Both the position numbers and the translations under genes were made by a program. Source: Anoxynatronum buryatiense (GTDB lineage: Bacteria > Bacillota > Clostridia > Peptostreptococcales > Tindalliaceae). From it: a DNA stretch of 64,000 nt. This document shows, in pieces, positions 1 to 11,844 of the stretch; the stretch's first letter is position 1; every line of letters starts with the position of its first letter. The stretch covers positions 62,001 to 126,000 of the forward strand of contig NZ_FXUF01000010.1 in assembly GCF_900182905.1 (NCBI RefSeq). The letters are read 5' to 3'. A model generated the notes under the pieces. The model worked only from the letters and a program-made list of their open reading frames with translations, was not told where the DNA came from and did no database searches.

Positions 1-1
1 A

Positions 2-706
2 AACCCCCGCACCAGTGTCATGATTCTCTGCAGCCCCCACAATCCTGTTGGACGTGTCTGGAGCCGCAGTGAAATTTCAAGGGTGGCAGAACTGTGCCTG
101 GCCCATGATGTACTGCTGATTTCAGACGAAATTCACCATGATCTGGTTTTTGCGCCCCACCGGCACCAGATTACCGCCATGCTGTCCGATGAAATTGCCC
201 ACAACACCATTACCTGCACAGCTCCCAGCAAGACCTTTAATCTGGCAGGCTTGCAGGCTTCCAACATCATTATTACCGACGAGAAAAAAAGACGCCGTTT
301 TACCCAAACACTGGAGCGCAACGGAGTCTTTGGCATTAATCCCTTTGGCAGCGCAGCCACCATTGCCGCCTATGAGTCAGGGGCCCCCTGGCTTGATGCC
401 CTGCTGGATTACCTGACGGAGAACCTGGACTATCTGGAAAACTTTGTGAAGGAACATCTGCCCGAGGTGCGTCTGTTCAGACCCGAGGGCACCTACCTGG
501 CCTGGATGGATTTCAGGGCTCTCGGCCTTGATCAGACCGCTTTGGAAGCATTGATTGAAAAGGATGCAGGCGTCGCTCTGAATCAAGGTTACATCTTTGG
601 CGATTCAGGCATTGGCTTTCAGCGGATGAATGTGGCCTGCCCACGCAGTCTGCTTGAAGAAGGCCTCAACCGCATTACCAGAGCAGTGGCTGCCCAGCGA
701 AGATAA
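2..706 (+). CDS. MalY/PatB family PLP-dependent C-S lyase or aminotransferase, 5' truncated by window edge
   Basis: The reading frame is open to the first base of the window, so only the C-terminal 234 residues are present; family members are about 390 aa. The fold-type I PLP enzyme signature is clear: CSPHNPVGR near the visible N-terminus, then SDEIHHDLVF, which holds the aspartate that contacts the PLP pyridine, then APSKTFNLAG with the PLP-binding lysine. The C-terminal half ends with RMNVACPRSLLEEGLNRI, typical of the MalY/PatB (cystathionine beta-lyase) branch. These enzymes cleave cystathionine or cysteine, or transaminate, in the cytoplasm; the substrate is not fixed by sequence. It converges on the selenoprotein gene, only 29 bases away. 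Confidence 0.88.
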   Translation, partial: NPRTSVMILCSPHNPVGRVWSRSEISRVAELCLAHDVLLISDEIHHDLVFAPHRHQITAMLSDEIAHNTITCTAPSKTFNLAGLQASNIIITDEKKRRRFTQTLERNGVFGINPFGSAATIAAYESGAPWLDALLDYLTENLDYLENFVKEHLPEVRLFRPEGTYLAWMDFRALGLDQTALEALIEKDAGVALNQGYIFGDSGIGFQRMNVACPRSLLEEGLNRITRAVAAQRR

Positions 707-735
707 GCCGCTCATTTGGCCGGAAGCCAGGAATG

Positions 736-1344
736 TCAGCGGTTCAGCTGAAGGTGCTGAAGCAGGACTGTTGCCGGATCATCAGTCACCTGCTGATAGA
801 GTCGTTCCCCCTCAGGGGAATAGATGACAACACCCCGGTGTACTGTGCTGGCCTGGGGTTGAATGATCCCCGCTTCCCGATAAAACATGATTTCAGGATC
901 GGACATCAGTGGATAGCTGAGTCCGATTTTTTCTGTCAGCGCTTCATGCGCGGCTGGTGTATCGGCACTGACGCCGTAAAGGGCGTAGCCTAAATCTTCA
1001 ATTTCTTCGATCACTTCGTTCAGCTGACCCAGCTGCTGCGTACAGATGGATCAGCCGGCGCCCAGAAAGAAAACGAAAATAGTGCCGGTGTCACCGGCAG
1101 CCAGCAGATCGCCCACACGCTGGGTTTCTCCCCGGTGATCCAACAGTGCCAGATTCTCTACAACACCGCCTGCCCCATCTGTTTCAAGAGTGGGGGCTTG
1201 TGCTGTATTCCGAAACCCCAGAATGGCAACGACAATCACCAGGATCACGGCCATAACGGCCATCCAGATCATTACCTGTCTTCCTTTTGCCGGCGTGCCC
1301 TGAGCTTTGCTGTTTTTCCGCTTGATTTTTCTAATCTGTGACAT
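736..1344 (-). CDS. Membrane-anchored redoxin (AhpC/TSA-like) selenoprotein, Sec at codon 98
   Basis: Two collinear same-frame segments are separated only by UGA at 1051-1053. Read as selenocysteine they give one 202-aa protein. It has a basic N-terminus, one membrane helix (about residues 24-43), then an extracytoplasmic thioredoxin fold. The active site reads [17 protein letters not shown], with Sec98 three residues before Cys101. Cys101 aligns with the peroxidatic Cys of peroxiredoxins and Sec98 takes the place of the conserved Thr. Downstream, [17 protein letters not shown] and [10 protein letters not shown] are normal redoxin elements and show no decay. A SECIS-like hairpin follows the UGA. 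The ribosome binding site GGGAGGGATAAGCC precedes the ATG. A thiol/selenol peroxidase or disulfide reductase role is inferred. A nonsense mutation is the alternative, but the hairpin and the Sec-x-x-Cys motif argue against it. Confidence 0.86.
1008..1053 (-). promoter_or_regulatory. SECIS-like hairpin for UGA at 1051-1053
   Basis: In the mRNA, two copies of the self-complementary hexamer CAGCUG (1035-1030 and 1026-1021) flank a GGU triplet, forming a 6-bp stem with an apical GGU. The GGU lies at nucleotides 25-27 counted from the U of UGA, inside the 16-37 nt range known for bacterial SECIS loops. GAUC at the UGA can pair with GAUC near 1013-1010 as a lower stem. The selenoprotein gene at 51249-51539 has an apical GGU at almost the same distance. 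Confidence 0.7.
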
Positions 1345-1400
1345 GGCTTATCCCTCCCGTATTGTATGGATTCACAAAAACGACTGTCGGCAGCTGCCAC

Positions 1401-2162
1401 TTAAGGCATCAACGACTGTCCGGTGTCTGTCCATGTGAAATTTTCGAGAATAACATGAGCTCTGGCTTCAAGTCCATCGCCGTATTCCCAGGGGTAATGA
1501 ATATCAATGTGAAAGAACCGACCGTCATGCTGCCCTGCATAGATGGCTCCTGTATACGCATCGTCCATGAAAAAGTATTCCCGCAGTGTCCAGTCATACA
1601 TCAGCTCTTCCGGAAGCTTTTTTTCAACCCATTCCACTTCCCGGGATACAAGAAGCCCATTATCTCCCGTCAAAAGATCAAAGAAAGCCTCAGAAGTCAC
1701 CACTGCATCGGCATGATAGAAGGTGACGGCCACATACGCTTCAGGATTTGGGTTGCCGCCATAGTTGGTGATAAAGCGAACGCCATCGGCTTCACCTGAG
1801 TCTGCTGTTTCAGCCACCATGTCTTCTGTATAATAGGTGTGGAAGGGGAGGCCTGATTCCCTGAACAAATGAATCACCACCGGTTCTTCCATTCCTTCAA
1901 TGAGAAACACCGTTTCGATGGTTTCCGGTAATTCTGCCGGTGTTTCTGCAACGGGTTCAACCGGGGCCGGTTCTTCCGCCGGCATCTCTTCGGTTGGTAT
2001 GTCTTCTGCCGGACTTTCCGCAGCACCATTGGGCCCACCAGCAGGCCTGCCACAGGCAGTAACTGCCAGCATCAATACCAGCCCCATTAATGCCAGTGCC
2101 AGCATCCATGGGCCGTGTCCTTTGTGAGTTGATTGATTTTTTTCCTCATGTCCTGTTGTCAT
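1401..2162 (-). CDS. Putative lipoprotein of unknown function
   Basis: This 253-aa protein has a basic N-terminal stretch (TGHEEKNQSTHKGHG), a hydrophobic helix and the lipobox LAVTACG, so it should be a lipoprotein on the outer face of the membrane. About 60 low-complexity residues rich in Pro, Glu and Ala follow as a linker. A globular C-terminal domain (about residues 85-253) contains FLIEGMEEPVVIHLFRE and an aromatic, acidic tail. I recognise no family. The ATG at 2162 is chosen because GGAGG lies 8 bases upstream; the ATG at 2177 has no spacing to a ribosome binding site. The gene sits between cls and the Sec-redoxin on the same strand, so a shared envelope role is possible but unproven. 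Confidence 0.75.
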   Translation of the reverse strand: MTTGHEEKNQSTHKGHGPWMLALALMGLVLMLAVTACGRPAGGPNGAAESPAEDIPTEEMPAEEPAPVEPVAETPAELPETIETVFLIEGMEEPVVIHLFRESGLPFHTYYTEDMVAETADSGEADGVRFITNYGGNPNPEAYVAVTFYHADAVVTSEAFFDLLTGDNGLLVSREVEWVEKKLPEELMYDWTLREYFFMDDAYTGAIYAGQHDGRFFHIDIHYPWEYGDGLEARAHVILENFTWTDTGQSLMP

Positions 2163-2261
2163 TATCAACGCCTCCATTTTGAATGATTCAGTGACTCATG
2201 TCCATTAACAGGTTGTGTGGATCTTTTTTGGAGTGGTTCTGTTTTGTGCAGCTGGTTTTTC

Positions 2262-3704
2262 TTACAGAATCGGCGACAGCAATCGCATGGCCGATTCTTT
2301 AAACCGGTGAATAAAAGGTCGCTGTCGATGGTGTTCCAGGCTTACCTCAATGCTGTCGGCCAAATCTTCAAAGAAATCATGGCTCATTTGACGGGTGATG
2401 GCTTCATCGTAGTAAAAGGCATTCACCTCAAAGTTCAGATCAAAGCTTCGAATATCCATGTTGGTGGTTCCCACAGAAGTAAAGTTGTCATCCACCAGCA
2501 CCACCTTGCTGTGCATGAAGCCCTTTTGATATTGAAAGATTCTGACGCCGGCTTCCAGCAACTCCTGAAAATGTGATTTGGATGCCCAGAAGACTGTTCG
2601 GTGGTCAGGGCGCCCCGGAAGCAGAATTCGAACATCGACGCCACGAAGGGCCGCGGTTTTGAGGGCGACCAGAATGCTCTCATCCGGCACCAGGTAGGGG
2701 GTGCAAATATAGACTCGCTGCATAGCCGTGGTAATGGCCATGAAGTAACCCTGATGAATGGATGCCCACAGCGAGTCAGGGCCACTGGAAACCACTTGAA
2801 TCAACTGGTCTCCCAAATGCTCCCTTCGCGGAAAAAAGATCTTGTCATCTATTTCCTGCCCGCTGACAAAATACCAGTCCCGCAGAAAGATAACCTGCAG
2901 CGCATAAACAGCTTCACCCTCAATTTGAACCTGGGTATCCCGCCAATAACCCAGTTCCGGTGATTTTCCCAGGTATTCGTCACCAATGTTCAATCCACCG
3001 GTGAAGCCCATTCGGCCATCCACCACCAACAGCTTTCGATGGTTTCGATAGTTCAGGCGATGGGCCAGGATCACCGGGTAAAGCACTTTCAGAAAGGGTT
3101 TCACCTCCACCCCTGCCTCCCGCATCTCATCAAGAAACCGGCGGCTCAGGCGCCAACTTCCCACTGCATCGTAGATAAGCCGCACCGATATGCCCTCCCT
3201 GGCTTTTTTGATCAGTGCCTGCTGAAAACGGCGGCCGATAACACTGTCTTTGATGATGAAATACTCCATGTGAACGTGGTGACTGGCTGATTCAATGGCC
3301 TTCAGCATGGTTTCAAAGGCTGTCTCTCCACTCTTTAAAAGATGGCTCCGGTTGTTTGCTGTGAGGGGAGCGTCACCGTTATTGACCATAAGGGGCAACA
3401 CTTTTCCACGAACATCATTGTAACGCCTGGTAAAGAGGTCACTATGGTCTGAAACAAAGATCTGATTATCCAGGAGACGGCGGATGATCCGGTAGTCCTG
3501 TTTTCGTTTTTTGATGAAGGTGCGTTTTTTACGGTGATTCTGACCCAAGTAAAGGTAGAGGAAGATGCCGAAAATTGGAACGAAAATGAGGATCAACAGC
3601 CAGGTCATGGTGCGGGAGGGGTTTCGGTTTTCCAGTACAATGACAAGCCCCACCACAATGGTGCTGATGGTGATCACCGCAGTAAGTATTCCCAGCGGAC
3701 TCAT
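2262..3704 (-). CDS. cls: Cardiolipin synthase
   Basis: A 480-aa member of the phospholipase D superfamily. It has two N-terminal membrane helices (MSPLGILTAVITIST... and MTWLLILIFVPIFG). Two HKD motifs follow: HRKLLVVDGRMGFTGGLN and HSKVVLVDDNFTSVGTTNMD, whose His, Lys and Asp residues are all present. The length matches bacterial Cls (about 480 aa). It condenses two phosphatidylglycerols to cardiolipin at the membrane. The start at 3704 is preferred over an upstream ATG because GAAAGGGGAATAGCG lies just before it. It is followed by the lipoprotein gene and preceded by a patatin-type lipase, forming a membrane-lipid group. Confidence 0.93.
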   Translation of the reverse strand: MSPLGILTAVITISTIVVGLVIVLENRNPSRTMTWLLILIFVPIFGIFLYLYLGQNHRKKRTFIKKRKQDYRIIRRLLDNQIFVSDHSDLFTRRYNDVRGKVLPLMVNNGDAPLTANNRSHLLKSGETAFETMLKAIESASHHVHMEYFIIKDSVIGRRFQQALIKKAREGISVRLIYDAVGSWRLSRRFLDEMREAGVEVKPFLKVLYPVILAHRLNYRNHRKLLVVDGRMGFTGGLNIGDEYLGKSPELGYWRDTQVQIEGEAVYALQVIFLRDWYFVSGQEIDDKIFFPRREHLGDQLIQVVSSGPDSLWASIHQGYFMAITTAMQRVYICTPYLVPDESILVALKTAALRGVDVRILLPGRPDHRTVFWASKSHFQELLEAGVRIFQYQKGFMHSKVVLVDDNFTSVGTTNMDIRSFDLNFEVNAFYYDEAITRQMSHDFFEDLADSIEVSLEHHRQRPFIHRFKESAMRLLSPIL

Positions 3705-3799
3705 CGCTATTCCCCTTTCTGTCTCTGCTTTAGCGTGTGCGCGTGGAATGATATTTCCGAAAGATACTTTTCCTGTTTTCGCAAGACCTGGTGGGATCA

Positions 3800-5035
3800 T
3801 CAGCCTTGAAGCATGTGCTGAAACCAGTCACGATTTTTCATGAAAGACTGGAGCAGCGCTTCTTTTTTCTTTTCTCTGCCGGGCTTAAAGAGATTTTCTG
3901 ATATTTTCAGAAATGAAGCCACCGAGTTGGCTTCGCTTTTTTCTTGCTGATGAAAGGGACAACTGGCAATCACTTGCATCCACTCATCAAACTCGTAAAC
4001 TTTCAGATAATCCACCTGGCAGGTTTCTGCCGTGGCTTCCAGCACCCGCAGCAGCAGGTCACGGTGTGTGTGGGAAGGTGTCAGCCCGGCCAGTTCCATC
4101 AACGCTGGAATGGCATCCTCAATAAAGAGACGGTTTAATGCCTTGCCAGGTTTCAGTCCCAGTATGGTGCACACTTCTTTTTTTGCTTCTTCCGGCCAGC
4201 GGAGAATCATCTGCAGGGCGGTCATTTCATCGGGAAAGGCTTTTAGGTAAAAGCGTTTGCCCTGATAATTTTTTAGAACTCGCAAGGTGTCCAGATAACC
4301 CAACATCAGGTTTCGCCGGCTTCGCCGGGTGCTGAAATCCAACATGCCTCCCAGATCACGCTCAGGTGCAATGTAATGAATGGTTGCGTCTTTCTCATTC
4401 ACCCTGATAATTCGCCCTGAACCATAAAGGCGAACAGCGTAGATTTCCCGGTAGCCTTTCTTCACCAGCATGTTGGCAGGAAGATTATTGTAAAAACCAC
4501 CGTCAAGAAACACCTTGCCGTCCAGCAGACGTTCCCTGAAAACAGGAAGGTATGAGGACGCCATGAGATAGTCTCCCATTTTCCCTTCTGGAATATCTTC
4601 TTTAAAGAGCTCCAGGGGTTTTCGATCGGTGATGGAGAAGGTGACAAATCCAAAATCCACCGGCGATCTTCTGATGGCTTCCTCGCTCAGCAGTTGCTGG
4701 ATCATGTCATAGAGTGGCGATGTGTCAATTCCGCTATTTTTGATGATGTTGCGAATTTCTTCTATGATCATTATCACGTTGGCATGATCCAATTTGCGGT
4801 CTGACAGCATTTCGTAAATATCATCGTCAAGGGTCATTACCTGCTGGGGTGTCATATGATACCACAGCTCCCATGCCGCTTCAAAGTCATCCTGAACCAT
4901 GAGCCCTCCGTTGAGAGCCCCCACAGAGGTACCTGTTATCCCCTGAAAAGTGACGCCCATTTCCCGGAAAGCTTTCCAGGCTCCAATTTGATAAGCGCCT
5001 TTGGCGCCGCCGCCCTCCAGTGTTAATCCCAGCAT
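3800..5035 (-). CDS. Patatin-like phospholipase family protein (RssA-type)
   Basis: A 411-aa protein with an N-terminal patatin domain. The oxyanion motif GGGAKGAYQIGAW is at residues 8-20, the nucleophile elbow is GTSVGALNGG, and the catalytic aspartate is in FLDGGFYNNLPA. The Ser-Asp dyad is therefore intact. No signal peptide is visible, so it should act in the cytoplasm or at the inner membrane face as an acyl hydrolase. The C-terminal third is extra and unassigned. The ribosome binding site AGGAGGATGACCC precedes the ATG. It lies 25 bases downstream of the FNR-like regulator gene, so the two are probably co-transcribed. Confidence 0.9.
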   Translation of the reverse strand: MLGLTLEGGGAKGAYQIGAWKAFREMGVTFQGITGTSVGALNGGLMVQDDFEAAWELWYHMTPQQVMTLDDDIYEMLSDRKLDHANVIMIIEEIRNIIKNSGIDTSPLYDMIQQLLSEEAIRRSPVDFGFVTFSITDRKPLELFKEDIPEGKMGDYLMASSYLPVFRERLLDGKVFLDGGFYNNLPANMLVKKGYREIYAVRLYGSGRIIRVNEKDATIHYIAPERDLGGMLDFSTRRSRRNLMLGYLDTLRVLKNYQGKRFYLKAFPDEMTALQMILRWPEEAKKEVCTILGLKPGKALNRLFIEDAIPALMELAGLTPSHTHRDLLLRVLEATAETCQVDYLKVYEFDEWMQVIASCPFHQQEKSEANSVASFLKISENLFKPGREKKKEALLQSFMKNRDWFQHMLQG

Positions 5036-5060
5036 GGGTCATCCTCCTCTTCAAGTAAGC

Positions 5061-5777
5061 TTACTCAATCAGTTCTTTCAACCGATTCATGTCACGAATG
5101 ATCACCCGGCGGCCGCTTTCCAGCAGCAGAATGCCTTCGGCCTGAAGTGCCGATAAACGTCGGCTGACGGTTTCACGGGTGAGTCCCAGATAGGCAGCCA
5201 TGTCTTCCCGGGAGAGGGGCATATTAATGGCCGTTCCTTCCAGCTCTCTCACTCCAAAACCTTCTGCCAGATTGATCAGCAAGACTGCCATGCGCACGTC
5301 AACATCTTTGCTGGTTAACACCTGCACCAGCTTTTCCAGTGATTTAATCCGGTCAAAGGCATGCGCCAGTACCTGATCTCTCACCTGGGGGCTGTCTTCC
5401 AGCACCCGGCGAAAATCTTCCTGGGCCAGCACACAAAAGGCGGTGTCTTCCAGAGCGGTTACCCGATACTCCACTGCCTCTTCTTTTAACAGGCTCAGTT
5501 CACCAAAAAAATCCCCTTCCGCCAGAATATAGAGAATCTGTTCTTTGCCATCCCGATTATAGGTATAGGCTTTGACACTTCCCTGATTAACGATGTAGAG
5601 ACTTGAAAGCAGGTCTCCTTCATGAAAGATGGTTTCGCCCTTTTTTATTTTTCGGCTGACAATCAGGCTGGAAATCTTTTCCAGCCCCGCTTCATCCAGT
5701 TGCTGAAATAAGGAAACTTTTGAAGCACAATAGCTGTTGCGGCAGGATTCACAGCCGCATCCCCGGCAAGCTTCCAT
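5061..5777 (-). CDS. Crp/Fnr-family transcriptional regulator with N-terminal cysteine cluster
   Basis: A 238-aa regulator. Residues 4-17 hold five cysteines (C4, C7, C9, C12, C17), a plausible iron-sulfur ligand set as in FNR. A cyclic-nucleotide-type beta-roll follows (GETIFHEGDLLSSLYIVNQGSVKAY, GDFFGELSLL). The C-terminal winged helix has the recognition helix LTRETVSRRL, in which the E-x-x-S-R pattern is that of FNR proteins reading TGA half-sites. The ATG at 5777 has GGGAGTG upstream; a GTG at 5807 is the alternative. It is divergent from the Ric operon with an FNR-type palindrome between them, so it probably controls NO/oxygen damage repair. Whether it binds an Fe-S cluster is inferred. 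Confidence 0.88.
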   Translation of the reverse strand: MEACRGCGCESCRNSYCASKVSLFQQLDEAGLEKISSLIVSRKIKKGETIFHEGDLLSSLYIVNQGSVKAYTYNRDGKEQILYILAEGDFFGELSLLKEEAVEYRVTALEDTAFCVLAQEDFRRVLEDSPQVRDQVLAHAFDRIKSLEKLVQVLTSKDVDVRMAVLLINLAEGFGVRELEGTAINMPLSREDMAAYLGLTRETVSRRLSALQAEGILLLESGRRVIIRDMNRLKELIE

Positions 5778-5927
5778 GTTGGTCACTCCCATTCTGTGTC
5801 TTATCACCAGTCGCTTTTCAAATGATTCATACCCACTTTTTGCTGCTTTAGCCCTTCCTTTGTCAGTTCTCTTTCTGATGTGCTGAAAGTCCCGTATGTC
5901 ATCATGTGATTTGCTTTTTTAGAGCCG

Positions 5928-5943
5928 CGTGATTCGAATCACG
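5928..5943. promoter_or_regulatory. Perfect 16-bp FNR-type palindrome
   Basis: The sequence CGTGATTCGAATCACG is its own reverse complement and contains GTGAT-N4-ATCAC, one base per half-site from the FNR consensus TTGAT-N4-ATCAA. TACACT at 5965-5970 could be the -10 of a plus-strand promoter. That would put the palindrome centre near -41.5, the class II activator position, for the ric operon. It lies between the FNR-like regulator gene and ric. Confidence 0.7.
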
Positions 5944-6058
5944 GTTTTTCTGCTTTTATCAGTGTACACTTGGGTTACTGTTGGTGATGCCACACCATCG
6001 CCCCAATGCATCTGTGGATTCCTTCACCGACGGGGTATGATACTAAGGAGTGATTCAT

Positions 6059-6760
6059 ATGATTACCACCAACGACATTCATTTGAACGAGACGCTTGGT
6101 GCCATTGTCAGCCGTTTTCCAGGCTCGATTCCCATTCTCACGAAGCATGAGATTGACTTCTGCTGCGGCGGTCACCGCACGTTGGCCACTGCCCTTGACC
6201 TTTCTTCGGATCAAAGAACGCACCCGGTGCTCACCGAACTTAATGCTGGTTATGAACGTGCTCTCACCGAAGGAGAAGACTTTCAGCAGTTTCGTTATGA
6301 GAGCCCCACCATGCTCATGGATTACATTGTTCACTGGCATCACGAGCGGCTGCGCGAAAATCTGCCGACCATCGAGAAGCTGTTGGCTAAAATAGTAGCG
6401 GTTCACGGAAGCAATCACCCGGAGCTGCTGGCTGTGGAGCAGGCGTTTACACCTCTGAAAGCTGCCATGATTGAGCACTTGTCTGAAGAAGAGACCCATA
6501 GCTTTCCTCTCATTAAAGAAGCCTCTGAAACCGTCACACTCACCAGAGAAACCATGACCGCTCTTGACAGCCTGCGAGAGGATCACGACACCGTGGGTGA
6601 TCACCTGAAAGCCATTCGCCGTCTCACCCAGGGATTCACCATACCCGAAGATGGCTGCTCCACTTACCATTTCGTGTATCAAAAATTGCTGGAGCTGGAA
6701 ACAGACACTTTCCAGCATGTGCATTTGGAAAACAATGTGCTGTTTCACATGATTGGCTAA
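6059..6760 (+). CDS. ric: Iron-sulfur cluster repair di-iron protein (Ric/ScdA/YtfE)
   Basis: A 233-aa protein. The N-terminal DUF542/ScdA_N domain carries HEIDFCCGGHRTLATAL, with the typical Cys-Cys pair. The C-terminal hemerythrin-like domain supplies His and Glu ligands for a di-iron site (VHWHHERLRENLP, MIEHLSEEETHSFPLI, LREDHDTVGDHL, HVHLENNVLFHMIG). Ric proteins repair iron-sulfur clusters damaged by nitric oxide or oxidants in the cytoplasm. The start is set by AAGGAG at 6045-6050, eight bases before the ATG. It is the first gene of a run with a DUF1858 protein and a second hemerythrin, downstream of an FNR-type palindrome, which fits induction by NO or oxygen stress. Confidence 0.94.
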   Translation: MITTNDIHLNETLGAIVSRFPGSIPILTKHEIDFCCGGHRTLATALDLSSDQRTHPVLTELNAGYERALTEGEDFQQFRYESPTMLMDYIVHWHHERLRENLPTIEKLLAKIVAVHGSNHPELLAVEQAFTPLKAAMIEHLSEEETHSFPLIKEASETVTLTRETMTALDSLREDHDTVGDHLKAIRRLTQGFTIPEDGCSTYHFVYQKLLELETDTFQHVHLENNVLFHMIG

Positions 6761-6849
6761 CCACTTTAAACTACCACCCGCCAAATTAACAACTGATTTA
6801 ACAACTGAAATTAGCAACCGAATTAACTACCTAAAAAGGAGCGATTTCA

Positions 6850-7044
6850 ATGAACATTACCAAAGACATGACCATTGCAGAAATTTTGAAGCACCAACCC
6901 AATGCCGCCGTCATTCTCATGCAGTTTGGCATGGGGTGCATCGGCTGCCCTTCCTCTCAGTCAGAAACCCTGGCAGAGGCGGCGCTGGTTCATAACATGG
7001 ATGCCGACGCCATTCTGGTAAAACTGAATGAGGGGCGTACCTAA
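6850..7044 (+). CDS. DUF1858 domain-containing small protein
   Basis: A 64-aa protein that is almost entirely one DUF1858 domain: ITKDMTIAEILKHQPNAAVIL, then FGMGCIGCPSSQSETLAEAALVH, and a C-terminal VHNMDADAILVKLN. The GMGCIGCPSS Cys-x-x-Cys motif is diagnostic. The function is not established; such domains occur beside Ric/hemerythrin proteins and hybrid-cluster proteins, which suggests nitrosative stress or a redox cofactor. The ribosome binding site AAAAGGAGCGATTTCA precedes the ATG. The gene ends with TAA followed directly by TGA. Confidence 0.9.
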   Translation: MNITKDMTIAEILKHQPNAAVILMQFGMGCIGCPSSQSETLAEAALVHNMDADAILVKLNEGRT

Positions 7045-7065
7045 TGAGCCTGTTTCTGGGAATCT

Positions 7066-7212
7066 GTGGGTGATGACGTGTTGCATTATGATGACCTTCG
7101 AAAAACCTGGATTCAGGCATTTTCAAACCAGCTGCAGCCCTCCTGGAGCTACTCGGTGTCACCGGAGGGGATTCACCAGATTCAGACTGAAGGAGGAACT
7201 TCTGCCCTATGA
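7066..7212 (+). CDS. Possible small protein between DUF1858 and hemerythrin genes
   Basis: An open frame of 48 codons from a GTG at 7066, in the same frame as the DUF1858 gene after its TAA-TGA. The predicted peptide (VGDDVLHYDDLRKTWIQAF... PSWSYSVSPEGIHQIQTE) has amphipathic, protein-like composition. Its stop overlaps the next ATG as ATGA at 7209-7212, a pattern of translational coupling. The ribosome binding site is poor (TGGGAATCT). It could be a real small protein, or the remnant of a domain once fused to DUF1858 and cut off by the stop codons. The tail resembles DUF2249-like sequences only weakly. Confidence 0.3.
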   Translation: MGDDVLHYDDLRKTWIQAFSNQLQPSWSYSVSPEGIHQIQTEGGTSAL

Positions 7213-7763
7213 ACGCCATTGAACTGATGACTTATGAACACACGTTTATTCGCCGCATGCTCACTGTCATGCGCAAGTTTGCATACCGTCTCATGAATGA
7301 TCCGCAAATGGACGTTTCTGATGCCCCCCTGATGATTGACTTTGTTCGCCAATACGCTGACAAGCATCACCACGGAAAAGAGGAAGATCTTCTCTTTAAC
7401 CGCATGGTGGCACATCTGGGTTCTGCTGCTGTGAAGCTGGTACAGCACGGCATGCTGGTGGAACACGATTTGGGACGTCTTCATATGAAACTGATGGAAG
7501 AAGGCATTGAAGCGTTTCAGGCAGGCGATGATGAAGCCCGGCTTGATATCATAGGCAATGCCATCGCTTATACCCAACTGCTTGACCGTCACATCTCCAA
7601 AGAGGATGACATGGTTTATCAGTTTGCCTGGCGTCATTTTCAGCCGGAGATGATCGAACTGATCAACCGGGAAACGGATGATTTTGAAGTCAAGGCTTCG
7701 GCAGCAGGCATTCAGCAGCATTACCTGACTCTGCTGGAGGAGATGGAAGCGAAATACCTGTAA
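7209..7763 (+). CDS. Hemerythrin domain-containing protein
   Basis: A 184-aa protein made of one hemerythrin HHE-type four-helix bundle. Candidate di-iron ligands appear in order: YEHTFIRRML (H14), DKHHHGKEEDLLF, MLVEHDLGRLH and LDRHISKEDDMVYQFA. Single-domain hemerythrins of this kind bind oxygen or react with NO or peroxide in the cytoplasm. GGAGG lies about 10 bases before the ATG. It is the last gene of the ric group and is followed by a strong hairpin terminator. Confidence 0.9.
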   Translation: MNAIELMTYEHTFIRRMLTVMRKFAYRLMNDPQMDVSDAPLMIDFVRQYADKHHHGKEEDLLFNRMVAHLGSAAVKLVQHGMLVEHDLGRLHMKLMEEGIEAFQAGDDEARLDIIGNAIAYTQLLDRHISKEDDMVYQFAWRHFQPEMIELINRETDDFEVKASAAGIQQHYLTLLEEMEAKYL

Positions 7764-7767
7764 AACG

Positions 7768-7796
7768 AAAGCTGCGGACGCATTGTCCGCAGCTTT
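7768..7796. terminator. Bidirectional rho-independent terminator
   Basis: A perfect 12-bp stem (AAAGCTGCGGAC / GTCCGCAGCTTT) with loop GCATT lies between the convergent hemerythrin and PFOR genes, followed by TTCTTC on the plus strand. Confidence 0.85.
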
Positions 7797-7843
7797 CTTC
7801 TGATGCTGATTCATTTCATTTCCAGCTTATGCCGCTGGATTTT

Positions 7844-11844
<4,001 letters not shown>

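Follow-up and report, generated by a model that had tools for sequence, protein, structure and literature searches.

A UxxC selenoprotein redoxin with a predicted membrane anchor in Anoxynatronum buryatiense and its relatives in another bacterial order

The locus and its predicted product

The stretch of DNA analysed here (hereafter the window, 64,000 nucleotides of the Anoxynatronum buryatiense genome) contains at positions 736..1344 a selenoprotein gene for a membrane-anchored redoxin of the AhpC/TSA fold, comprising 202 codons and a TGA stop. The coordinates given in an earlier note on this DNA proved correct; the gene is encoded on the minus strand, a point which that note had left unsaid, with its ATG starting at 1344, its TGA stop at 738-736 and, by sequence reading alone, a candidate ribosome-binding site (GGGAGGG; 1352..1358, minus strand) 7 nt 5' of the ATG. 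If TGA is taken to encode Sec, the frame runs from 1344 to 736, and its only interruption is a single UGA (1051..1053, minus strand), corresponding to Sec98, as had been proposed. Under the standard code (table 11) the gene falls into two fragments, also as anticipated, of 97 aa (1344-1051) and 92 aa starting from a GTG (1014-736). The only redox residues of the protein are Sec98 and Cys101 (codon at 1042..1044, minus strand), the sole cysteine and the predicted partner of Sec98 in a U-S-I-C motif.

The whole protein matches the Pfam model PF00578 (AhpC-TSA) with an E-value of 2.2e-18 and 66.8 bits against a gathering cut-off of 26, which places it in the AhpC/TSA family, and all 11 further members scanned also exceeded this cut-off. 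The part after the UGA alone retains the match (5e-14), and the part before it, scanned alone against Pfam, gave no redoxin match; the earlier statement that both halves carry family sequence is therefore limited to the whole protein and the second half. A transmembrane helix was identified at residues 24-42 (1219..1275, minus strand; mean hydropathy 3.2). Because the very basic residues 1-23 hold eight Lys/Arg and no Asp/Glu, the N-terminus is predicted to lie inside and the domain outside the cell, in agreement with the external active site suggested before. In an AlphaFold2 model built from four sequences, the mean pLDDT per ten-residue block was 89-97 over residues 61-200, except for 161-170 (75). 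Sec98 stands immediately before helix 99-110 of this model, with a mean pLDDT there above 90, and the anchor helix spans 19-45 in a region of low confidence. The best PDB matches of the model were yeast thiol peroxidase, PrxQ/Bcp and AhpC (2a4v, 5iiz, 5y63). Arg170 (835..837, minus strand), which belongs to an Arg-Gly pair, is kept in the relatives and aligns with an Arg of AhpC.

Relatives and the selenocysteine machinery

The A. buryatiense genome (4.16 Mb, 99.8% complete) encodes a full set of Sec genes. A tRNA-Sec gene (selC; 73 bits, cut-off 47, anticodon TCA) was found on contig C3, which also carries selB (390 bits), the adjacent selA (600 bits) and, approximately 3.4 kb beyond selB, selD (390 bits). 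The earlier note had asked for these four genes and regarded their absence as grounds for giving up the selenocysteine reading; since selA, selB, tRNA-Sec and selD are all present on contig C3, that objection falls away. The selD gene (G000:C3:350937-351857, L090) is a selenoprotein gene too, with an in-frame TGA in the motif KSAGUAAK, and GrdA with a CFVU motif is also present in this genome.

A search of 60 related genomes revealed full-length homologs with one TGA in the window genome and three others, which are, in the named collection, one Clostridiaceae MAG and two Tindallia MAGs. Identity to the window protein ranges overall from 43 to 54% (53% for L018, from the same genus as the window genome, 44% for L019 and 43% for L020). 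The UGA occupies the aligned codon, in the same frame, in all four full-length genes found in the bacterial family, so that the suggested check for homologs with Cys or Sec at this position turned up Sec, and chance or sequencing error can be dismissed because three other genomes keep it. Downstream of the UGA, dN was 0.21 and dS 1.36 (NG86; L019/L020, the sole pair for which they could be computed). Moreover, in codons +6 to +13 after the UGA the codon itself was kept at 6 of 6 invariant amino acids versus 7 of 55 elsewhere (Fisher 3e-5), a range picked post hoc, and codons +1 to +15 give 6 of 7 versus 7 of 54 (p 2e-4). No further full-length member was found in 393 genomes of the order (4/393 in total), and a class-level search of 391 genomes yielded no additional UxxC member at E 1e-9; this rarity in its own order counts against the best explanation offered below.

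The surroundings of the gene are partly conserved. A PatB-like C-S lyase gene facing the redoxin gene and a patatin-like gene beyond it are common to the window and the three relatives; for the part of the former that lies inside the window, the PatB model scored 282 bits, below its cut-off of 340. Between those flanking genes the three relatives encode a short protein, with a LapA domain by Pfam in L018, and the window has a lipoprotein-like gene and a cardiolipin synthase gene there instead. A 258-aa protein, lipoprotein-like by eye, is encoded on the same strand 56 nt upstream of the redoxin (1401-2177, minus strand); scans against Pfam and NCBIfam gave it no match with an E-value up to 1, and it was not seen at this place in the ORF lists of L018, L019 and L020. 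In two other genomes (G003 and G004), the first 47 codons of the redoxin gene are all that remains: the redoxin domain is lost and the remnants end well short of the Sec codon, at a locus that also carries the patatin-like gene. These remnants (L053 and L054, minus strand, around 1495-1656) consist of the basic tail and membrane helix, directly followed by a stop. Viral contigs held no relative of the redoxin. Plasmids gave 37 matches to the window protein, all below 60% identity, and those annotated among the 20 listed were AhpC or redoxin-domain proteins; no plasmid matched a member from the other order described next.

When 398 genomes of the phylum were searched, another class yielded a lipoprotein-like redoxin with the motif GVGUDFC (L086). 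A profile including this sequence was then run on 348 genomes of its order, which appears to be Bacilli-like, and the best 30 loci plus 40 more were examined. UxxC was present in 30 of the best 30 and 34 of the further 40, i.e., 64 UxxC loci, and the remaining six carry CxxC of the W-C-P-x-C type. Among the 63 members extracted (L119, from the first 30, is not one of them), 61 have a lipobox pattern before the domain, and all have an Arg-Gly pair 70-78 residues after Sec, which is also found in the four Clostridia genes. A single Cys follows Sec in 62 of the 63; the exception, L136, is a UxxC redoxin gene whose frame is broken upstream of the Sec codon. It belongs to a selB-positive genome (G1427), and the related genome G1448 has an unbroken copy (L140).

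A UGA redoxin of this kind occurs in at least 65 of the 348 genomes, where a genome was counted if it had a listed match with E <=5.6e-15 and a TGA at this domain (61 read directly, and four, G1255, G1294, G1405 and G1467, from the list of matches). This number is a lower bound because weaker or unlisted matches were dropped, together with second copies, G1480 (L169, CxxC), G1418 (three stops in the match) and the frame-broken G1427. By a profile that was positive only for E. coli and M. jannaschii among 14 controls, selB was present in 157 of the 348 genomes. All 65 UGA-redoxin genomes possess selB and none of the 191 selB-negative genomes is among them (Fisher 3.5e-27, computed on related genomes, so that the events are not independent). 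Thus, at least these 65 genomes, approximately 41% of the selB genomes and one-fifth of the sampled order, have the UGA redoxin. The other 92 selB genomes had no UxxC redoxin among the listed matches counted, and other selenoproteins therefore probably maintain the Sec machinery in them.

The hairpin following the UGA

A SECIS region was located at 1006..1053 (minus strand) by a covariance model trained on 59 sequences from the other order, with the window and its three relatives held out. The match scored 34.6 bits (E 1.3e-5 in 64 kb), and the next best match within the window had an E-value of 3.4; the same model gave E-values from 2.4e-7 to 7.4e-4 on L018, L019 and L020. Part of this signal stems from a conserved Q-L-x-x-L peptide. 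The upper stem-loop (1020..1036, minus strand; CAGCU, loop, AGCUG) has five pairs and lies 17-33 nt downstream of the UGA's first base. At the bottom of the stem, where a sixth pair would form, the window has a G-A mismatch. In the four Clostridia sequences an apical loop lies 20-21 nt after the UGA, with a G among the first two loop bases.

Further support came from pairing across the wider group. After four of 67 extracted sequences were left out as repeats, the 48 nt from the UGA could be aligned without gaps in 63 sequences (62 distinct), and a six-pair hairpin in columns 18-34 had 98.4% of its cells paired in the distinct set. Four of the pairs are invariant; one is G-C in 41, A-U in 17 and G-U in four sequences, and another is G-C in 39, U-A in 14, C-G in three and unpaired in six. 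Double changes were found in 34 cells, compared with 10.8 after shuffling (none of 500 shuffles was as high) and four or fewer in slid controls, and RNAalifold recovered the same hairpin without guidance. At the Gln and Leu codons involved, the 63 sequences use CAG..CTG in 41 cases, CAA..TTG in 18 and CAG..TTG in four: the A-U form of the stem has CAA plus TTG in place of CAG plus CTG, with both codons synonymous, and the combination that would break the pairing, CAA plus CTG, never occurs. Single-sequence folding was significant for the window (z about -3), whereas the three relatives gave z-scores of -0.46, -2.31 and -0.22, two of them no better than shuffles; the minimum-energy fold of the window is a longer hairpin that includes the UGA. 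The Rfam model SECIS_1 (RF00031) matched neither the window's own genome nor any of 14 controls, a null result that is uninformative because this model describes the eukaryotic element.

The SECIS-like hairpin noted earlier is thus conserved across relatives, shows compensatory changes and is recognised by a held-out model. Taken with the full sel set, the conserved UGA and the way the UGA redoxin tracks with selB over 348 genomes, these computations make Sec insertion at residue 98 near certain, in line with the original proposal.

Placement and proposed function of the redoxin

An alignment to other redoxins from relatives, 51 rows in which some loci occur twice, paired Sec98 with the Thr of TxxC peroxiredoxins and Cys101 with their peroxidatic Cys, which confirmed that Sec takes the place of the conserved Thr and not of the peroxidatic residue. 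Redoxins of this fold with a CxxC motif (L072, L087, L088, L133-L135 and others) have a Cys in the column of Sec98. The alignment also covers six TxxU loci, whose Sec lies three residues further on, and a single UxxU protein (L038, from G049), a redoxin with two in-frame TGAs and the motif UGAU, which forms its own long branch. The six loci (L026, L041, L042, L044, L073 and L076), TGA-bearing weak matches, were rejected as UxxC members since they are TxxU peroxiredoxins, and L079-L085 and L087-L089 were set aside as PrxQ, CxxC or AhpC types.

The earlier view that this Sec-x-x-Cys position is unusual did not hold, and novelty on this ground was rejected, as UxxC Prx-like selenoproteins with the same motif have been in print since 2005. 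An excerpt of PMC1088965 describes Prx-like proteins in 22 sequences with "UXXC instead of TXXU", the corresponding part of PMC2398784 assigns Prx-like 1 to PF00578 with UxxC in 225 sequences, and tables in PMC9312934 and PMC13188914 include Prx-like UxxC entries. A Prx-like family is also named in a passage of PMC1794560 and reported for 28 organisms in one of PMC5029168, passages that make no mention of the motif. The first of these studies, according to the same excerpt, applied a Cys-homolog criterion in its selenoprotein search; a Cys homolog at the Sec position is a usual search criterion for selenoproteins and not a defining one. For Bacillales, the passage of PMC1794560 lists three selenoproteins in three families. 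The words Bacilli, Bacillota, Bacillus and lipoprotein never occur in the main text of the 2026 review PMC13188914, and no description of such a lipoprotein family was found in the openly licensed literature as covered by titles and the starts of abstracts, with most subscription journals outside.

A tree of 92 rows, in which L072 and L136 were not placed, put the 66 UxxC rows on one side of a branch with support 99/92 and the CxxC, UxxU, TxxU, TxxC, PrxQ and AhpC rows on the other. No Cys form was found inside the UxxC branch, which hints at a step that Cys performs poorly. The four rows from Clostridia cluster with 14 from the other order (98/88), yet keeping the 62 other-order rows together was not rejected (p-AU 0.29), and the tree program warned of long branches meeting. 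The nesting of Clostridia within the other order was therefore not accepted as a sign of the direction of transfer. None of 13 members scanned (the window protein, L086, L107 and ten others) reached any NCBIfam cut-off, and the Sec-linked models matched weakly, below cut-off. The gene belongs to a larger group, one that escapes the annotation models tested. It is a real selenoprotein with a known type of motif; what appears to be new is that it is membrane-anchored and apparently Sec-only.

Whether this anchored group is anything distinct can be debated. With a PF00578 domain and UxxC, the window protein fits the definition of the Prx-like UxxC thiol:disulfide oxidoreductases, and the Pfam family and motif are those given in Table 1 of PMC13188914 and in the part of PMC2398784 mentioned above; it could be an ordinary member of that published family, a reading that deserves serious attention and that we nevertheless hold to be the less probable outcome. 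Against it stand the absence of any NCBIfam match at cut-off among the 13 members and the 99/92 branch that sets the 66 UxxC rows apart from the CxxC, UxxU, TxxU and TxxC rows of the tree. The fuller alternative, a separate Sec-only anchored UxxC family that occurs in part of Bacilli and a few Clostridia, shares one SECIS, is restricted to selB genomes, has gone unnoticed because the UGA divides each gene and acts as the selenium-dependent reductant of Sco1/CuA in part of Bacilli, is a tentative proposal that, taken jointly, we regard as doubtful.

Gene neighbours offered some clues to function. With 1.5-kb flanks, clustering placed a Sco1/SenC-like gene upstream of the redoxin in 12 of 29 loci and, in ten of those 12, a CtaG-like gene, of a type concerned with copper-oxidase assembly, upstream of the Sco1-like gene. 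Pfam confirmed Sco1 in all five loci scanned (L106, L113, L114, L115 and L118) and CtaG in four (L106, L113, L114 and, as an 89-aa piece outside the ten, L118). A YtkA-like gene lies in between in two of the twelve (L115 and L118, by Pfam), and L177, from another clade, has a gene matching these by blastp; in another group, a cupredoxin-like gene adjoins the redoxin in L122 (Pfam) and in L126 and L127 (clustering). A general link to Sco1 was rejected, and the association was limited to one clade, because 20 further loci outside the Sco1-linked clade (3-kb flanks) had no Sco1 or CtaG, whether proteins were clustered by blastp (E 1e-10) or Sco1- and CtaG-type queries were run by blastp (E 1e-3). 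These 20 include two re-fetched members of the first 30 (L189 and L191) and one locus (L190) whose anchor fell on a chance match, the real redoxin lying elsewhere in the stretch. By eye, no Sco1 or CtaG was recognised among the ORFs of window positions 1-8000. Moreover, since GrdA and pyruvate:ferredoxin oxidoreductase are both present in the A. buryatiense genome and suggest an anaerobe, Sco1 and CuA clients are unlikely in the window organism, where the neighbours of the gene point to no client.

Based on these data, the reading that we favour, with a probability of roughly 0.8 for the whole explanation, is that the selenoprotein plays a role like that of TlpA, as a Sec/Cys thiol-disulfide reductase tethered to the membrane. 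The UGA would be decoded as Sec by the organism's own SelA, SelB, tRNA-Sec and SelD, with the hairpin 17-33 nt downstream directing the insertion. The basic N-terminus would remain inside the cell, and one transmembrane helix would hold the AhpC/TSA domain, of thioredoxin fold, outside. Sec98, at the N-terminus of the active-site helix, may be the attacking residue, and Cys101 may resolve it as a Sec-Cys selenosulfide. The protein might then work as TlpA or ResA do and be recharged by an electron donor in the membrane. Its probable clients, in part of the other order, would be Sco1 and, in cytochrome c oxidase, the CuA subunit: according to an excerpt of PMC6696091, ScoI and COX II are reduced in Bradyrhizobium by TlpA, itself a redoxin anchored in the membrane, and this model is adopted, as probable, for the Sco1-linked clade only. 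We infer the substrate and clients, and likewise the topology, the nucleophile, the selenosulfide and the choice of reductase over peroxidase.

The main rival accepts the same selenoprotein and gives it the destruction of peroxides outside the membrane as its main job, with either Sec98 or Cys101 attacking and the other resolving. Peroxiredoxins have the active-site motif PxxxTxxC, and an Arg is one of their active-site residues. The AhpC/TSA fold, the thiol peroxidases as best structural matches and the Arg-Gly pair retained in 63 of 63 members checked are compatible with such an activity, and peroxide defence would be sensible for an anaerobe. On the other hand, the window sequence L-G-A-G-U-S-I-C departs from PxxxTxxC and TxxU, with no Pro in its column and Sec in that of Thr, a UxxC without another redox residue is the layout of a thiol-disulfide redoxin, and Sco1 and CtaG adjoin the gene in one clade; we hold a peroxidase to be the less likely reading. 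That the UGA is a true stop in a decaying pseudogene or a sequencing error (gene loss does happen, as in G003 and G004, and L136 is frame-broken), or that it is read through with another amino acid such as Trp, for which no support was found, is extremely improbable, and both were rejected: four genomes and 64 UxxC loci of another order carry the UGA at this codon, codon-level and pairing constraints follow it directly, the gene's own stop is TGA, and tRNA-Sec and SelB are present in the genome, as selB is in every other-order genome counted.

What could not be seen at this locus at first is that the gene belongs to a wider set of anchored redoxins, many of them from another order of the phylum. 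If the family is as it seems, about one-fifth of the genomes sampled in one order (at least 65 of 348) have a selenoprotein that matches no current NCBIfam model at cut-off (13 members scanned). The presence of this protein would help explain the retention of the Sec machinery in these genomes, and its SECIS would be one whose compensatory changes are synonymous at both codons. Through the Sco1/CtaG clade, the family would also raise a possible connection of selenium with the assembly of copper sites in cytochrome c oxidase; were it the selenium-dependent reductant of Sco1/CuA there, selenium would be tied to the making of an enzyme of aerobic respiration.

Several known systems resemble the window protein in part. 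The published Prx-like thiol:disulfide oxidoreductases (UxxC/UxxU; WP_010940744.1) share, as far as their descriptions go, its Pfam family, Sec position, UxxC motif and presumed thiol-disulfide chemistry; compared with those descriptions, the domain here is anchored outside the membrane, by a helix in the window protein or a lipoprotein signal in the other order, showed no Cys form and is encoded with a shared SECIS signature. Selenocysteine peroxiredoxins (Prx, TxxU) have the same fold and Sec in the same active-site region, but there it replaces the peroxidatic Cys, three residues later, and the six TxxU loci and the UxxU protein L038 lie outside the UxxC branch. A weak profile similarity over the domain links the protein to the SelL-related model (NF040769; 36.9 bits for the window and 24-32 bits for other matching members, cut-off 120). 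The TUGYCR redoxin model (NF053656) takes its name from the motif T-U-G-Y-C-R, another UxxC, of a thioredoxin-fold (seleno)protein, and it gave 18.0 bits for the window and 16-26 bits (maximum 26.3) for other matching members, against a cut-off of 100. AhpC and PrxQ/Bcp have in common with the window protein the fold (2a4v, 5iiz and 5y63) and the aligned Arg, whereas it lacks their Pro-x-x-x-Thr-x-x-Cys and scores 38 bits with the AhpC model (cut-off 272). Finally, TlpA, ResA and StoA are likewise redoxins tethered on the outer side of the membrane, with two residues between the partners of the redox pair, and TlpA works on ScoI and COX II according to the excerpt cited above; in comparison, the window protein has Sec in place of the first Cys and is by profile of the AhpC type rather than the ResA type (24.4 bits with the ResA model, cut-off 170).
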